Of a stretch of 64,000 bases of DNA, positions 236 to 53,180 are shown in pieces. Under the pieces are notes generated by a model. It had not been told where the DNA came from. It did not search any database and worked only from the letters and a program-made list of their open reading frames with translations. Within the stretch, counting starts at the first letter, position 1; each line of letters begins with the position of its first letter. The translations under genes were made by a program, and so were the position numbers. Origin of the DNA: Nocardioides cavernae (GTDB lineage: Bacteria > Actinomycetota > Actinomycetes > Propionibacteriales > Nocardioidaceae); NCBI RefSeq assembly GCF_016907475.1, contig NZ_JAFBCA010000001.1, forward strand, positions 930,001 to 994,000. Direction: 5' to 3'.

Positions 236-1512
236 CCGACCCCGTCTCGTTCTTCCGCTCCGTGGCGGCACGGCACGCACGCTGCTTCTGGCTCGACGGG
301 GGTGGCGCGCGCGAGTGGTCGGGCCGGCGCTCGATCATCGGCTGGCTCGACGAGAACGACGCGTCCCTGTCGTGGTCCGCCGCCCGGCGCGAGGTCAGCC
401 TGCACGCAGGCGGGGTCGCGACCGTCGTCGGTGACGACGTCTTCGACGTGCTCGAGCAGCGCATCGCGGCGGGCGAGCAGTGGTTCGGCTACCTCGGCTA
501 CGCCTCGCGCACCGACCTCCCCGCCACCCCCGACCCGACCCTCCCCGACGCGATCTGGATGCGGCCGCGCGCGGTGCGGGTGTTCGAGCACGCCCTCCCC
601 GCCTCGGCCCCGTCGGAGTCCCCGCACGTGCGGGGACTCCAACACTCGGAGGGGGTTGCAACCGCCTACGAGCGCCAGACTTCCCCACCAAGCTCGTACA
701 TCGATGCCTTCGCGCGCGTCCAGGAGCACCTGCACGCCGGCAACTCCTACGAGGTCAACCTCACCCACCGGCTGTCCCGCCGGTCCGACCTCGACCCGGT
801 GACGGCGTACCTCCGGCTGCGCGAGCTCAACCCGGCGCCGTACAGCGGCTTCCTCCAGCACGACGTCGACGGCGCGCGCGCGTGGCTGCTGTCGAGCTCG
901 CCGGAGAGGTACGCCCTCGTCACCGCCGACCGGCACCTGGAGACCAAGCCGATCAAGGGCACCACCCCGCGCGGCGCGACCGCCGAGGAGGACGAGCACC
1001 ACCGCGAGCGGCTCGCGCGCGACCCGAAGAACCGCGCGGAGAACCTGATGATCGTCGACCTGCTCCGCAACGACCTGTCGGTGGTGTGCGAGGTCGGGTC
1101 GGTCGAGGTGCCGGTCCTGATGGAGGTCGAGTCCTACGAGTCGGTCCACCAGCTCGTGTCGACGGTGCGCGGGCGCCTGCGCGACGACGTGTCGACGGTC
1201 GCCGCGCTGCGCGCGCTCTTCCCGGCCGGCTCCATGACGGGCGCGCCCAAGCTGCGCACGATGGAGATCGTCGAGGAGGTCGAGTCGAGCCCGCGCGGGG
1301 CGTACGCCGGCGCGTTCGGCTGGATCAGCGGCGACGGCCCGGCCGACCTCGGCGTCGTGATCCGGTCGCTGATGACCGACGGCAGCGGCACCTGGACCCT
1401 CGGCACCGGCGGCGGCATCACCGTGAAGTCCGACGTCGCCGAGGAGTGGGCCGAGTCGGAGTGGAAGGCCGAGCGGCTCCTCCACGTCTTCGATCTCCCG
1501 GACGCGCTGTAA
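232..1512 (+). CDS. pabB: Aminodeoxychorismate synthase component I
   Basis: A 426-aa chorismate-binding enzyme that aminates chorismate to 4-amino-4-deoxychorismate, the precursor of p-aminobenzoate and folate. The motif PIKGTTPRG near residue 242 contains the Lys typical of PabB rather than the Ala of anthranilate synthase Trp[14 protein letters not shown] and [15 protein letters not shown] are the conserved chorismate-binding blocks, and GTGGGIT lies near the C-terminus. The ATG at 232 is chosen because it overlaps the stop of the amidotransferase gene, giving translational coupling; a longer reading frame upstream lies inside that gene. The final stop TAA (1510-1512) is supplied by the palindromic repeat at 1505-1582. 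Confidence 0.92.
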
Positions 1513-1582
1513 CGCCGGGTTACTGCAACTACCCACTGGGGTGCTCGGGGGTGGGTAGTGGCACTAACCCGGCGTTACAGCG
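1505..1582. repeat. Family A palindromic repeat, copy 1
   Basis: This 78-bp element has perfect 18-bp outer arms (1505-1522 and 1565-1582, CGCTGTAACGCCGGGTTA and its complement). The pairing continues inward to about 32 bp per arm with two mismatches, leaving a G-rich loop. It lies between the convergent pabB and mprB genes and contains both stop codons: TAA for pabB at 1510-1512 and TAG for mprB at 1564-1566. Related copies of the same length lie at 38823-38900 and 53104-53180. It could act as a bidirectional transcription stop, although there is no T-run, or be a small mobile palindrome of REP or MITE type. Confidence 0.9.
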
Positions 1583-19846: not shown

Positions 19847-19886
19847 GTCGAGTCGGCGCATCCTGAGCAGGATGCGCCGACTCGAC
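19847..19886. terminator. Perfect 19-bp hairpin between convergent genes
   Basis: Arms 19847-19865 and 19868-19886 pair perfectly across 19 bp with a two-base loop, between the stop of bkdC and the convergent epimerase gene. The sequence CGTGTTT follows on the plus strand. A third, nearly identical copy of the right arm (one mismatch) lies at 19900-19918 and runs to the epimerase stop. It probably acts as a bidirectional terminator. Confidence 0.75.
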
Positions 19887-19919
19887 CGTGTTTCGAGGTC
19901 AGGATGCGCCGCCTCGACG

Positions 19920-22482: not shown

Positions 22483-23518
22483 AGAGATGTTCACGACCGT
22501 GCGCCGCGGCTACGACCCGGGCGAGGTCGAGCGTGCCGTGGGTCAGGCCCAGGCGGAGGTCGCCGACCTGCGTCAGCGGCTCGAGGCGGCCGAGGCGGCT
22601 GCCGACTCGGCGAAGGGCGAGGCCTCGGCATCCCGCGAGGCGCTCGTCGCGCGCGAGTCGCACCAGCCCGAGGCGCCGTCGTACGAGCACCTCGGTGAGC
22701 GCATCGGGCAGATCCTCTCGCTCGCCGAGGCCGAGGCCGCCGAGGTCCGTGACCGGGTGCTCGGCGAGGTCGAGACCATGCGCAAGGAGGCCGAGCAGGA
22801 GGTGGGTGCCCTGCGCGCCGACGCCGACCGCTACGCCGAGGACACGCGCCGCGACGCCGACGCCGAGGGCGCCCGCGTCCTCGCCGACGCGCGCAAGGCA
22901 GCCGACGGGGAGCGGGACGCCGCCGAGCGCGACGCCTCCGCGCGTCGCGCCGAGGCCGAGGCCCTCTACGAGGACCAGCGCGCGAAGGCCGCCCAGGCAG
23001 CCGCGGACTTCGAGACCACGCTCGCCGAGCGTCGCCAGAAGGCCACGGCCGAGTTCCAGGCCCAGCAGGCCGCGACCCAGGCCGAGCTCGACGCGATGGC
23101 CGCTCGCAACAAGGACACCGAGGCCACCCTCGAGCGCAACCGGGTGGAGGCCGAGGAGCGCATCGCCCGGATGCTCGCCGACGCCGAGGAGAGGTCGACG
23201 ACCATGGTGTCCGAGGCCCGCACCTCCGCCGACCGCGTACGCGCCGAGTCCGAGCGGGAGCTGGCCGCCGCCGCCCAGCGCCGCGACAGCATCAACGCCC
23301 AGCTGTCCAACGTCCGGCAGATGCTCGCGACCCTCACCGGCACCGTGCCCGGGGTCGTCGGCCTGTCCGACGCGCCCGCCCCCTCGGCCACCGCCCCGCA
23401 CGGCGACCCCGTCGCCGACGCGGCTCGCGCGGAGTCGGACGAGCCCGAGGCCGCGGAGAGCGCCGACGAGCAGGACGACACGCCGGACGACACGCCGGAC
23501 GCGGCCGAGGAGCGGTGA
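22475..23518 (+). CDS. DivIVA-like coiled-coil protein
   Basis: A 347-aa protein. The N-terminus MFTTVRRGYDPGEVERAVGQ resembles the membrane-binding DivIVA/Wag31 domain, whose conserved residues in this stretch include the Phe and the RGYDP segment. A linker with HLGERIGQILSLAEAEAAEV follows, then about 200 residues of coiled coil (KATAEFQAQQAATQAELDAM and similar) and an acidic tail. DivIVA proteins bind curved membrane at cell poles and organise tip growth. The start overlaps the end of the upstream coiled-coil gene (22475-22482) and has CCAGGAG upstream. It is not the canonical wag31, which normally sits next to the ftsZ/sepF cluster; this looks like a second DivIVA-domain protein. Confidence 0.72.
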   Translation: MPEEMFTTVRRGYDPGEVERAVGQAQAEVADLRQRLEAAEAAADSAKGEASASREALVARESHQPEAPSYEHLGERIGQILSLAEAEAAEVRDRVLGEVETMRKEAEQEVGALRADADRYAEDTRRDADAEGARVLADARKAADGERDAAERDASARRAEAEALYEDQRAKAAQAAADFETTLAERRQKATAEFQAQQAATQAELDAMAARNKDTEATLERNRVEAEERIARMLADAEERSTTMVSEARTSADRVRAESERELAAAAQRRDSINAQLSNVRQMLATLTGTVPGVVGLSDAPAPSATAPHGDPVADAARAESDEPEAAESADEQDDTPDDTPDAAEER

Positions 23519-23521
23519 GCC

Positions 23522-23551
23522 AGGCGGGTTCTCACGCTCGAGAACCCGCCT
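23522..23551. terminator. Bidirectional terminator-like hairpin
   Basis: Arms AGGCGGGTTCTC (23522-23533) and GAGAACCCGCCT (23540-23551) pair perfectly over 12 bp with a 6-base loop. It lies 4 bases after the DivIVA-like gene stop and faces the convergent carboxyltransferase gene. There is no T-run, as is usual in actinobacteria. Confidence 0.75.
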
Positions 23552-23555
23552 CACA

Positions 23556-23610
23556 CACCGCTCGATCGGCGACACGCCCCGACGCACCGCTCGGGTGACG
23601 ACACGCCTCG
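23556..23610. repeat. Two copies of a split repeat motif (family C motif)
   Basis: The motif CACCGCTCG, five free bases, then CGACACGCC occurs at 23556 and again at 23585, 29 bp apart, directly downstream of the hairpin at 23522-23551. The same 9+5+9 arrangement recurs once more at 62023, next to other palindromes. The sequence between the two conserved halves differs each time. Confidence 0.8.
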
Positions 23611-37359: not shown

Positions 37360-38841
37360 GTGCTGATCCGCAACGCCCGCCTCGTCGCCGTCACCGAGGC
37401 CGTCCCGGGACCCGTCGACCTACGCCTCGACGGGGGTCGGGTGGTCGAGCTCGGGCCGTCGCTGAGCGGCGACGAGACGTCGTACGACGCCGCCGGGCGC
37501 TGGTTGATGCCCGGGCTCTGGGACCAGCACGTGCACCTCGGCCAGTGGACGCTCACGTCCGCGCGGCTCGACCTCGCTCCCGCCCGGTCCAGCGCCGAGG
37601 CGGTCGCGCTGGTACGCGCGCGGCTGGAGGAGTGGCCCGACGTGCCCGTCATCGGGTGGGGTCACCGGCCCACCGCGTGGCCCGACAACCCCGCGGTCTC
37701 CGACCTCGACGCGATCGACACCGACCAGCCGATCGTGCTCATAGCGGGCGACGGCCACCATGGCTGGCTGAACACGACGGCGCTGCACATGCTCGCGCTG
37801 CCGACCCGCGACAGCGTGGTCAGCGAGGCCGAGTGGTTCATGGCCTACGGGCGCCTGACGACCGTCCTCGGCACCGACGGGACTGGCCCCGACGCCTACC
37901 GACGCTCGATGGAGGCGGCGGCCGCGCAGGGCGTGGTGGGGCTCGTCGACCTCGAGTTCAGCGGCGGCGTCGCCGACTGGGCCGAGCGGTGGGCCGGCGG
38001 CGCCGACCTGCTGCGGATCCGACACGCCTGCTACGCCGACGGGCTCGACGACGTGCTCGCCCGCGGCCTGCGCTCCGGCGACCCGCTCGCCGACGACCCG
38101 CGCCTGACGATGGGTCCGCTCAAGATCATCAGCGACGGCTCGCTCAACACCCGCACCGCCTGGTGCTGCGAGCCCTACGCGGAGAAGGCCGTACCCGGTT
38201 TCGAGGAGGGCCAGCCCAACCAGAGCCCGGACGAGCTCCGGGCGCTGCTGGCCCGCGCCGCGGCCGGCGGGCTCGAGGTCGCCGTGCACGCCATCGGCGA
38301 CCGCGCGGTCACCGAGGCGCTCGCCGCCTTCGAGGACACCGGCGCCCGCGGCGGCATCGAGCACGTGCAGCTCACCACGCGCGACGACGTACGCCGCATG
38401 GCGCACCTCGGCGTGCGCGCCAGCGTGCAGCCCGCTCACCTCCTCGACGACCGCGACGTCACCGAGCGGCTCTGGCCCGGTCGTGCCGAGCGGTGCTTCC
38501 CGCTGCGGTGGATGCTCGACGACGACGTCGAGGTCGTCCTCGGCTCCGACGCCCCGGTGTCCCCGCTCGACCCGTGGCTCGCGATCGCCAGCGCGGTCCA
38601 CCGCTCCGACGACGACCGCGAGCCGTGGCACCCCGAGCAGTCGATCACTGCCCGCGAGGCGCTCGCCGCCTCGACCGACGGCTGGGGCACGGTCGCGGTC
38701 GGGCACCCCGCCGACCTGGTGCTCCTCGACGCCGACCCTCTCGAGGGGGCGTCGGACCGCGAGCACGCCCGCCGGCTGCGGTCCTTCGCCGACCACGTCG
38801 TCGAGACCTGGGTCGCCGGCTCCGCTGTAACGCCGGGTTAG
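37360..38841 (+). CDS. Amidohydrolase family protein (YtcJ/Amidohydro_3 type)
   Basis: A 493-aa hydrolase of the D-aminoacylase/YtcJ branch. Metal-site motifs include QHVHLG (about residues 56-61), VHAIGDRAVTEA and GSDAPVSPLDPW. IISDGSLNTRTAW is the typical mid-protein block of this family. GTG 37360 follows TAGCGT (37348-37353) by 6 bases. The last codons (AVTPG) and the stop TAG at 38839-38841 come from the palindromic repeat at 38823-38900, as in mprB. Confidence 0.85.
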   Translation: MLIRNARLVAVTEAVPGPVDLRLDGGRVVELGPSLSGDETSYDAAGRWLMPGLWDQHVHLGQWTLTSARLDLAPARSSAEAVALVRARLEEWPDVPVIGWGHRPTAWPDNPAVSDLDAIDTDQPIVLIAGDGHHGWLNTTALHMLALPTRDSVVSEAEWFMAYGRLTTVLGTDGTGPDAYRRSMEAAAAQGVVGLVDLEFSGGVADWAERWAGGADLLRIRHACYADGLDDVLARGLRSGDPLADDPRLTMGPLKIISDGSLNTRTAWCCEPYAEKAVPGFEEGQPNQSPDELRALLARAAAGGLEVAVHAIGDRAVTEALAAFEDTGARGGIEHVQLTTRDDVRRMAHLGVRASVQPAHLLDDRDVTERLWPGRAERCFPLRWMLDDDVEVVLGSDAPVSPLDPWLAIASAVHRSDDDREPWHPEQSITAREALAASTDGWGTVAVGHPADLVLLDADPLEGASDREHARRLRSFADHVVETWVAGSAVTPG

Positions 38842-38900
38842 TGCGACTACCCACTGGGGTGCTCCACCGGGGGTACCGCCAGTAACCCGGCGTTACAGCG
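38823..38900. repeat. Family A palindromic repeat, copy 2
   Basis: A 78-bp element, same length as copy 1, with identical 18-bp outer arms (38823-38840 and 38883-38900). The inner pairing is less complete than in copy 1 but the core CTACCCACTGGGGTGCTC is shared with it. It overlaps the end of the upstream amidohydrolase and ends 18 bp before the stop of the convergent PucR regulator gene. Confidence 0.9.
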
Positions 38901-42602: not shown

Positions 42603-42616
42603 CGCATCCATCTCGA

Positions 42617-42657
42617 CCGGCAAAGACCCCCCGTACGGGGGGTCTTTGCCGGTTTCT
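42617..42657 (+). terminator. Intrinsic terminator after the desaturase gene
   Basis: Arms CCGGCAAAGACCCCCC (42617-42632) and its perfect complement (42637-42652) form a 16-bp stem with a 4-base loop, followed by TTTCT. It lies 15 bases after the desaturase stop and is the clearest rho-independent terminator in the window. Confidence 0.92.
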
Positions 42658-45125: not shown

Positions 45126-45300
45126 AGAGCCGGAGGTCGTACGACGAGGAGTCGCACGGTCTCCGGCTCTCGTGCGTCCGGACCCCGACTACCTGGGTGG
45201 GTCGTCGTCGCACGAGCACCATGCAGGCAGTTCGCCTCTCGCGCCGCGCGGCTGAGCGCGAGGGCGAGGTCCTGGTGCTCGAACTGCCTGCAGGGTGCTC
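45126..45300. other. Strong paired stem-loops in a gene-free gap
   Basis: Two structured segments lie close together in the 393 bp between 45091 and 45483 that hold no convincing gene. At 45126-45170, perfect 10-bp arms AGAGCCGGAG / CTCCGGCTCT enclose 25 bases. At 45214-45300, arms of 21 bp pair with one mismatch (GAGCACC-x-TGCAGGCAGTTCG pattern), and the interior adds CTCGCGC / GCGCGAG. The rest of the gap (45301-45483) shows nothing clear except the ribosome-binding site AAGGAG before 45484. The arrangement resembles a structured RNA or a repeat remnant; which one is undecided. Confidence 0.5.
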
Positions 45301-53103: not shown

Positions 53104-53180
53104 CGCTGTAACGCCGGGTTGGTGGCCCTACCCACGGTGGTGCAAGGCAGTGGGTAGTCGCACCAACCCGGCGTTACAAG
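53104..53180. repeat. Family A palindromic repeat, copy 3
   Basis: The 72-bp core (53107-53178) has perfect 15-bp arms, TGTAACGCCGGGTTG and CAACCCGGCGTTACA. Compared with copies 1 and 2, the innermost arm base pair is G-C instead of A-T, with the partner strand changed to match. Inner pairing continues for about 19 bp with three mismatches. It lies 26 bp after the stop of the acyl-CoA dehydrogenase gene and 81 bp before the start of the ATPase gene, both on the minus strand. The innermost pair change argues that the paired structure, not only the sequence, is kept. Confidence 0.9.

Follow-up and report, generated by a model that had tools for sequence, protein, structure and literature searches.

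A 72-bp palindrome, hereafter P, occurs three times in the window analyzed here, a 64,000-nucleotide stretch of the Nocardioides cavernae genome (contig NZ_JAFBCA010000001.1, positions 930,001 to 994,000), and elsewhere on the contig it stands on both sides of a gene for a predicted nuclease, designated nuc. We consider it probable (about 0.65), from sequence comparisons, that P is a double-stranded DNA recognition site and a small non-autonomous companion of this mobile nuclease gene, with P-nuc-P as the autonomous unit. The pair looks like an unrecognized kind of small selfish element, and its best reading is a system resembling the repetitive extragenic palindromes (REPs) and their RAYT enzymes, but with a homing-type nuclease unrelated to RAYT as its enzyme. 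The genomes compared showed clade-specific arms, the pairing of palindrome with gene, covariation between a protein helix and the palindrome centre, concerted evolution of P, conflict between trees, and a solo P at the cassette site. A first-pass annotation of the window had taken P for a mobile or domesticated palindrome that had become part of gene ends, which is partly supported; the partner gene flanked by two copies lay beyond the window.

P is composed of an arm (TGTAACGCCGGGTT), 8 variable bases, the box TACCC, an 18-base centre, the box GGGTA, 8 variable bases, and a second arm. The 4.85-Mb genome contains 22 exact arms forming 11 complete palindromes, all exactly 72 bp long with all 22 arms identical; arms with one mismatch were absent and seven had two mismatches, against eight matches at up to two mismatches for a backward-pattern control in the same genome. 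With 3 mismatches allowed at most, the complete 72-bp pattern was detected in 30 of 215 genomes of the genus at 1 to 13 copies each, and its backward control in none of the 215. Genomes from other families of the order varied, some having more arms (at two mismatches) than the backward control and others not. The further copies for which the first-pass annotation had proposed a search hence exist, and none of the 11 lies within a called gene. Copy 1 (1508–1579) is located between the convergent genes pabB (+) and a sensor kinase (−). It comprises the left arm (1508–1521, +), which has the same sequence in all 22 genomic arms, the TACCC box (1530–1534, +), which is invariant in 11/11 copies, the 18-bp centre (1535–1552), whose dyad-adjacent bases vary from genome to genome together with the partner protein's recognition helix, the mirror box GGGTA (1553–1557, +), and the right arm (1566–1579, −). 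Copy 2 (38826–38897) lies between convergent genes for an amidohydrolase (+) and a PucR-type regulator (−), and copy 3 (53107–53178) lies between two genes of the minus strand, of which the one for an acyl-CoA dehydrogenase has its 3′ end 28 bp before P and the one for an ABC transporter begins 84 bp downstream of P. These cores agree with the locations first given for the three copies, and the stop codons ascribed to them were also found in place, as copy 1 holds the TAA of pabB and the TAG of the sensor kinase (mprB) and copy 2 the TAG of the amidohydrolase. Pfam agrees on these neighbors (chorismate-binding enzyme for pabB, sensor kinase, and amidohydrolase). The fixed arms, boxes, and length of P are no indication of very recent copying, because the variable bases differ freely among the copies; they look like constraint.

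The P-nuc-P cassette occupies contig positions 2,607,646–2,608,919 between yebC and ruvC, where nuc, encoding a 347-residue protein, is the single called gene between the two palindromes; its neighbors are YebC and RuvC, and no toxin partner adjoins it. The protein is predicted to combine an AbiEi-type winged helix with a C-terminal nuclease domain like that of I-Bth0305I, a Vsr-like homing endonuclease, the model of the protein matching AbiEi proteins and Vsr-type nucleases. Pfam assigned AbiEi_4 to 28 of 28 nuc proteins, AbiEi_1 to four, and no other family to any (E ≤ 0.01), and the AbiEi models of PADLOC matched residues about 14–185. A search of NCBIfam with the nuc protein gave nothing, and a sequence search of solved structures gave two abortive-infection proteins at E of about 0.5. 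The nuclease motif residues were invariant in all 28 proteins, and the ratio of amino-acid-changing to silent substitution rates (dN/dS) was 0.14–0.25. Proteins of this family are currently labeled AbiEi antitoxins or hypothetical, and a scan of genome contigs gave Nocardioides cavernae and N. lacusdianchii as named relatives. No match to the nuc protein was found in phage records; viral contigs contained no exact palindrome and, among 21 pattern matches, no nuc relative, and plasmids gave one weak partial match (29%). None of the three distant nuc paralogues in the same genome is accompanied by a matching palindrome; at one of these loci (L126), an arm match of 10 of 14 bases lies far from the gene and looks like chance. 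At locus L115, in a genome with 12 palindromes (G204), the nuc frame departs from its relatives at the C-terminus and is probably a decaying copy.

The pairing of nuc with a palindrome was evaluated at 40 loci, of which 28 had the palindrome on both sides, 10 on one side, and 2 on neither, whereas 29 ruvC control loci gave none in 27 cases and a one-sided palindrome in 2, one of them presumably the solo P of G017. Thirty of the 40 loci were obtained from a first homologue scan (E ≤ 1e-80), which gave 38 hits in 37 genomes, nearly always one cassette per genome, and ten (L274–L283) were among the 20 further loci of a class scan that had hits in 24 of 394 genomes. This tally leaves out L273 (genome G021, palindrome on both sides) and L284–L292 (looser settings only), while set A3 leaves out L103, in which the reading frame continues beyond the gene as far as ruvC, together with L100, a near-copy of L099. 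The cassette lies between yebC and ruvC in 24 of the 30 loci (three with one neighbor seen) and elsewhere in six, and its orientation relative to yebC or ruvC is the same in 14 cases and opposite in 10. As the nuc protein diverges, the arms change to TGTAACGCCGTGTT, GGTAACGCC, TGTAACGCGCCGTT, AAGTAACGCGGTGTT, TTGTAACGCGCTGTT, and others, most of which have GTAACG ends. Dispersed palindromes with the clade's own arms numbered 24 in G032, 12 in G204, 6 in G008, and 5 in G028. A scan of ten genomes gave 3 to 17 forward matches against 0 to 2 for backward controls. Several genomes share a non-palindromic stretch of 69 bases that enters these counts and should be taken off; the matches are itemized for the genomes other than G227 and G231, and those of G098 and G088 are only the ones beside the nuc gene. 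Of the 11 loci that the class scan gave outside the genus, 4 had palindromes on both sides and 1 on one side, and at 6 none was found. Seven genomes of another actinobacterial family were also scanned; dispersed palindromes numbered 22, 40, and 43 in three of them, where the backward control gave 0, 0, and 1, and were absent from the other four. The palindromes itemized for two of the three were all 44 bp long under a pattern that allowed 40 to 48 bp, and the site ranges from 44 to about 72 bp outside this clade, in which it is 72 bp. Three genomes with 9–11 copies of P (G121, G152, and G017) gave no nuclease match at E ≤ 1e-80, so that their partner has either diverged or been lost recently. 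In four genomes (L092, 3037–5610; L093, 3027–5638; G030; G130), a different gene region lies between two further copies of P spaced by about 2.5 kb, and no nuclease gene was found between these two in L092 and L093.

The palindrome centre was found to vary with one segment of the protein. Using centre bases taken from the P copies that flank nuc, and 26 genomes with an even-length core, the five dyad-adjacent bases covaried with nuc residues 30–44 at a partial r of 0.44 after removal of whole-protein distance. This best window was reached in 0 of 300 permutations, made without a tree model, and was identical in 26 of 26 jackknives. A test of 18 genomes, all with a 70-nt core, gave a partial r of 0.53 for residues 24–43; L115 was excluded from both tests owing to its out-of-frame C-terminus. 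Windowed tests of the outer arms against protein segments (87/300) and of the outer four of nine central bases (170/300) were not significant. A rough inspection by eye paired PHDV helices with GAGCAC/GTGCTC centres, ANDV/GNDV with GATATATC, PNDVR with GATGCATC, and NSDLRRL with GAAATTTC; the centre found with most DD-DLR helices was CTGCAG or CTGCAAC, G189 having GATGCAAC. In three pairs with different centres, divergence at amino-acid-changing sites was 0.30, 0.21, and 0.24 for the N-terminal part (to residue 53) and 0.08, 0.11, and 0.07 for the nuclease domain, a difference of about two to four times, whereas two pairs with the same centre gave 0.04 and 0.02 against 0.08 and 0.03; a sixth pair, with centres unclassed, gave 0.03 against 0.01. 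The nuc distance was 0.12–0.22 where that of YebC/RuvC was 0.02–0.06 (five pairs printed). The global result is weak and limits this claim: over 20 genomes, a partial Mantel test that took species distance into account showed no significant association between palindrome and nuclease, and the two distances are inseparable from species distance in this set.

The interiors of P were compared among 73 copies from seven genomes, with ortholog pairs having one matching flank excluded from the means. On average, 30.1 of 44 bases were alike in 103 orthologous pairs with both flanks matched, compared with 29.1 in 2144 non-orthologous pairs and 33.7 in 359 within-genome pairs. At eight orthologous loci of G000 and G030, the flanks were 91.7% identical but the interiors only 56%; interior likeness between these genomes was 26.0 for orthologous and 26.2 for non-orthologous copies, while the arms kept 27–28 of 28 bases. 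The stock of P in G129 is mixed, with six copies of one type and seven of the other. The nuc tree joined G129 with G000 (support 100) and rejected G000+G030 (approximately unbiased test, p-AU 0.003), whereas a tree of the flanks of five loci, with four of seven rows under half filled, joined G000 with G030 (99/100) and rejected G000+G129. YebC and RuvC alone also grouped G000 with G030, but did not reject G000+G129 (p-AU 0.11). The simplest reading of these sequences is that another nuc arrived horizontally and took the place of the resident one, and that the type of P in some of the stock matches it; the weak global result given above limits this claim too. The cassette site is occupied by a single P in G017, by P-nuc-P of 1263–1310 bp in G000, G129, G030, G235, G130, and G222, and is without P in G121, G091, G231, G065, and G022. 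In L134 (G065), the yebC-ruvC spacer is filled by clustered short palindromes resembling CCAACTCACGAGTTGG. The pabB junction was examined by eye in 30 genomes, giving a recognizable P in seven, a decayed P in three, a right-arm stub in three, an unrelated palindromic element in nine, and none in eight. The stubs (L185, L191, and L193) share the same left junction at the pabB end and look like a deletion through short homology. The unrelated element, which has a terminal GTCACCGGATATCCGGTGAC-like palindrome at the pabB-mprB junction (L170, L171, L178–L181, L183, L192, and L194), may be a second family favoring this junction.

Binding, dimerization, cleavage, repair-driven copying, and horizontal transfer of nuc are inferred from these patterns. 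In the most economical scheme, a nuc dimer would sit on P with its two recognition helices reading the dyad-adjacent bases and other parts reading the boxes and arms, and would cut there or close by. With a second P or a P-nuc-P as template, repair would then copy the resident type over other sites and could install the cassette, while recombination between the two flanking copies could leave a solo P. Such a cycle would account for the overwriting, for the spread of a new type after the arrival of a new nuclease, and for gain and loss of the cassette at P.

The gene context of the 11 copies was determined with a simple codon-usage gene caller. The three window copies had all been placed at 3′ ends; of the 11, nine contain or lie within 40 bp of one, and two lie between divergent 5′ ends. 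The closest called 5′ end is 67 bp from P. Five gene ends fall within P, and the AVTPG-stop ending noticed in the window terminates three genes at the 11 copies, the nuclease gene among them. P is probably not tied to 3′ ends as such, because most intergenic regions border a 3′ end and 9/11 is, by rough estimate, similar to placement in any intergenic region. The first-pass annotation also judged that the hairpin seems conserved, from a change of the innermost arm pair from A-T to G-C. This change is present in the window, but genome-wide the pair is A-T in seven copies, G-C in one, a wobble in one, and broken in two. When right halves were shuffled among the copies of a genome, pairing was about as observed in 8/8 genomes; the closest to an excess was one region of G032, reached by 36/500 shuffles, and left and right arm types in G032 matched in 6/24 copies where 5.1 were expected. 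The RNA folds of the three window copies are very stable on both strands (z −6 to −11), yet the conserved hairpin was not upheld, and since shuffled halves pair about as well as observed ones, the fold is best regarded, from these sequences, as a side effect of having two half-sites in inverted orientation. The proposal of a REP-like or MITE-like (miniature inverted-repeat transposable element) dispersed palindrome thus survives in spirit, with more copies and five gene ends inside them, and without the hairpin and the 3′-end specificity. Rfam at gathering thresholds detected only a tRNA in the window, so P corresponds to no described RNA family there. Other strong inverted repeats of the window, unrelated to P, are located at 19847–19918, 23510–23563, 42616–42653 (a perfect palindrome with 19-bp arms), and 45214–45300.

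Several other explanations were weighed. P might be a mobile or duplicated operator by which the AbiEi-type protein regulates genes or organizes the chromosome, with the nuclease domain incidental and ordinary recombination spreading and homogenizing the copies. The available text of PMC7319586 describes AbiEi binding to two 23-bp inverted repeats, much like the half-sites of P, and the independent assortment of the half-sites and the helix-centre covariation would be in accord with an operator. It is nevertheless unlikely in view of the invariant nuclease motif in 28/28 proteins with its dN/dS range, and of the location of nine copies at 3′ ends and two between divergent starts; two-sided flanking of nuc and the tree conflict are unexpected for a plain regulator. 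A conventional transposon is likewise doubtful; nuc would then be a transposase with a restriction-endonuclease fold and the flanking P the ends of the transposon, while solo P would be MITEs that it moves by a cut-and-paste or copy-paste route. The compact cassette with like ends (1263–1310 bp in six genomes), its two orientations, and the six loci outside yebC-ruvC would suit it, but each end is a complete palindrome instead of one terminal repeat, the cassette is nearly always single in a genome, and known transposase domains were absent from the 28 nuc proteins. No clear target duplication was seen by eye around the 11 copies, the flanks of which are often CCGC and GCGG, and overwriting at orthologous loci is not explained by transposition alone. 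That P acts as an RNA or cruciform hairpin, serving as a bidirectional terminator or mRNA stabilizer, appears very improbable despite the stable folds, the nine copies at 3′ ends, and the five gene ends inside P: the halves do not pair clearly above shuffled ones in any of the eight genomes, the covariation is with a protein helix, and no intrinsic terminator (a stem followed by a T run) was detected at copy 1, the copy scanned. A defence or toxin-antitoxin device, with P marking self or the AbiEi-like protein as antitoxin, is the least credible, since the PADLOC matches are offset by the toxin-free, one-gene cassette of this genome and by the absence of the protein from phage records and viral contigs and of the exact palindrome from the latter.

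REP/RAYT is, to our knowledge, the principal example of short palindromes associated with an enzyme gene that they flank. The P-nuc pair resembles it in having an enzyme gene between two copies of its own palindrome together with dispersed extragenic copies, and in repeat-enzyme coevolution with an enzyme diverging faster than its neighbors (PMC2817692, PMC3116915, and PMC3733652). However, RAYT (TnpA-REP) is a tyrosine transposase of the IS200/IS605 kind, unlike the AbiEi winged helix and Vsr-like nuclease of nuc. According to the portions of PMC3733652 at hand, REPs are 20–40 bp with an unpaired GTAG or CGTC at one end, whereas P is 72 bp with symmetric, paired ends lacking such a tag; furthermore, its halves do not covary. 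P-nuc is hence not a member of REP/RAYT, as the likeness is in architecture and both enzyme and site fall outside the definition. I-Bth0305I, an EDxHD (Vsr-like) homing endonuclease that is reportedly intron-encoded, resembles nuc in the predicted fold of the nuclease domain, while nuc is free-standing with two complete flanking sites and many solo sites in the genome. The target on which the phage-derived I-Bth0305I dimerizes is exceptionally long, at nearly 60 bp, and NUMOD-type regions are described where nuc has the AbiEi winged helix (PMC3943268). AbiEi antitoxins of type IV toxin-antitoxin systems (Streptococcus agalactiae AbiEi and Rv2827c) share the N-terminal winged helix and middle domain with nuc, which differs in its extra nuclease domain, genome-wide sites, and lack of an adjoining toxin (AbiEii nucleotidyltransferase). 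By its enzyme, nuc is hence nearest to Vsr-like homing endonucleases and AbiEi proteins. The mycobacterial REP13E12 (13E12) elements are also repeated loci tied to a nuclease-domain gene, with HNH/DUF222 genes in long repeats and not in short palindromes. Within the covered part of the result lists for open-licence PMC papers, no report of such a palindrome-nuclease pair was found. In the main text of the REP survey PMC3733652, "Actinobacteria" and "Nocardi" do not occur.

We give even odds to the broader proposal that P and nuc represent an actinobacterial selfish element of a new class. In this element, a free-standing AbiEi/Vsr-type nuclease would maintain uniformity among numerous long palindromic double-stranded DNA sites, and the sites would be changed through an altered or swapped winged helix while the nuclease domain stays, giving a natural series of matched protein-site pairs legible from genome sequences. 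If true, this would be an independent solution to the one of REP/RAYT, using an unrelated enzyme on duplex DNA in a phylum unnamed in the main text of the REP survey (PMC3733652), and would offer a hypothesis for proteins now annotated as AbiEi antitoxins or hypothetical. It would also provide a natural recognition code between a winged helix and its site's centre, and selfish DNA, instead of termination, would be the reason for palindromes near gene ends. Because P copies differ in type among related genomes, conversion of the sites may be visible between strains.
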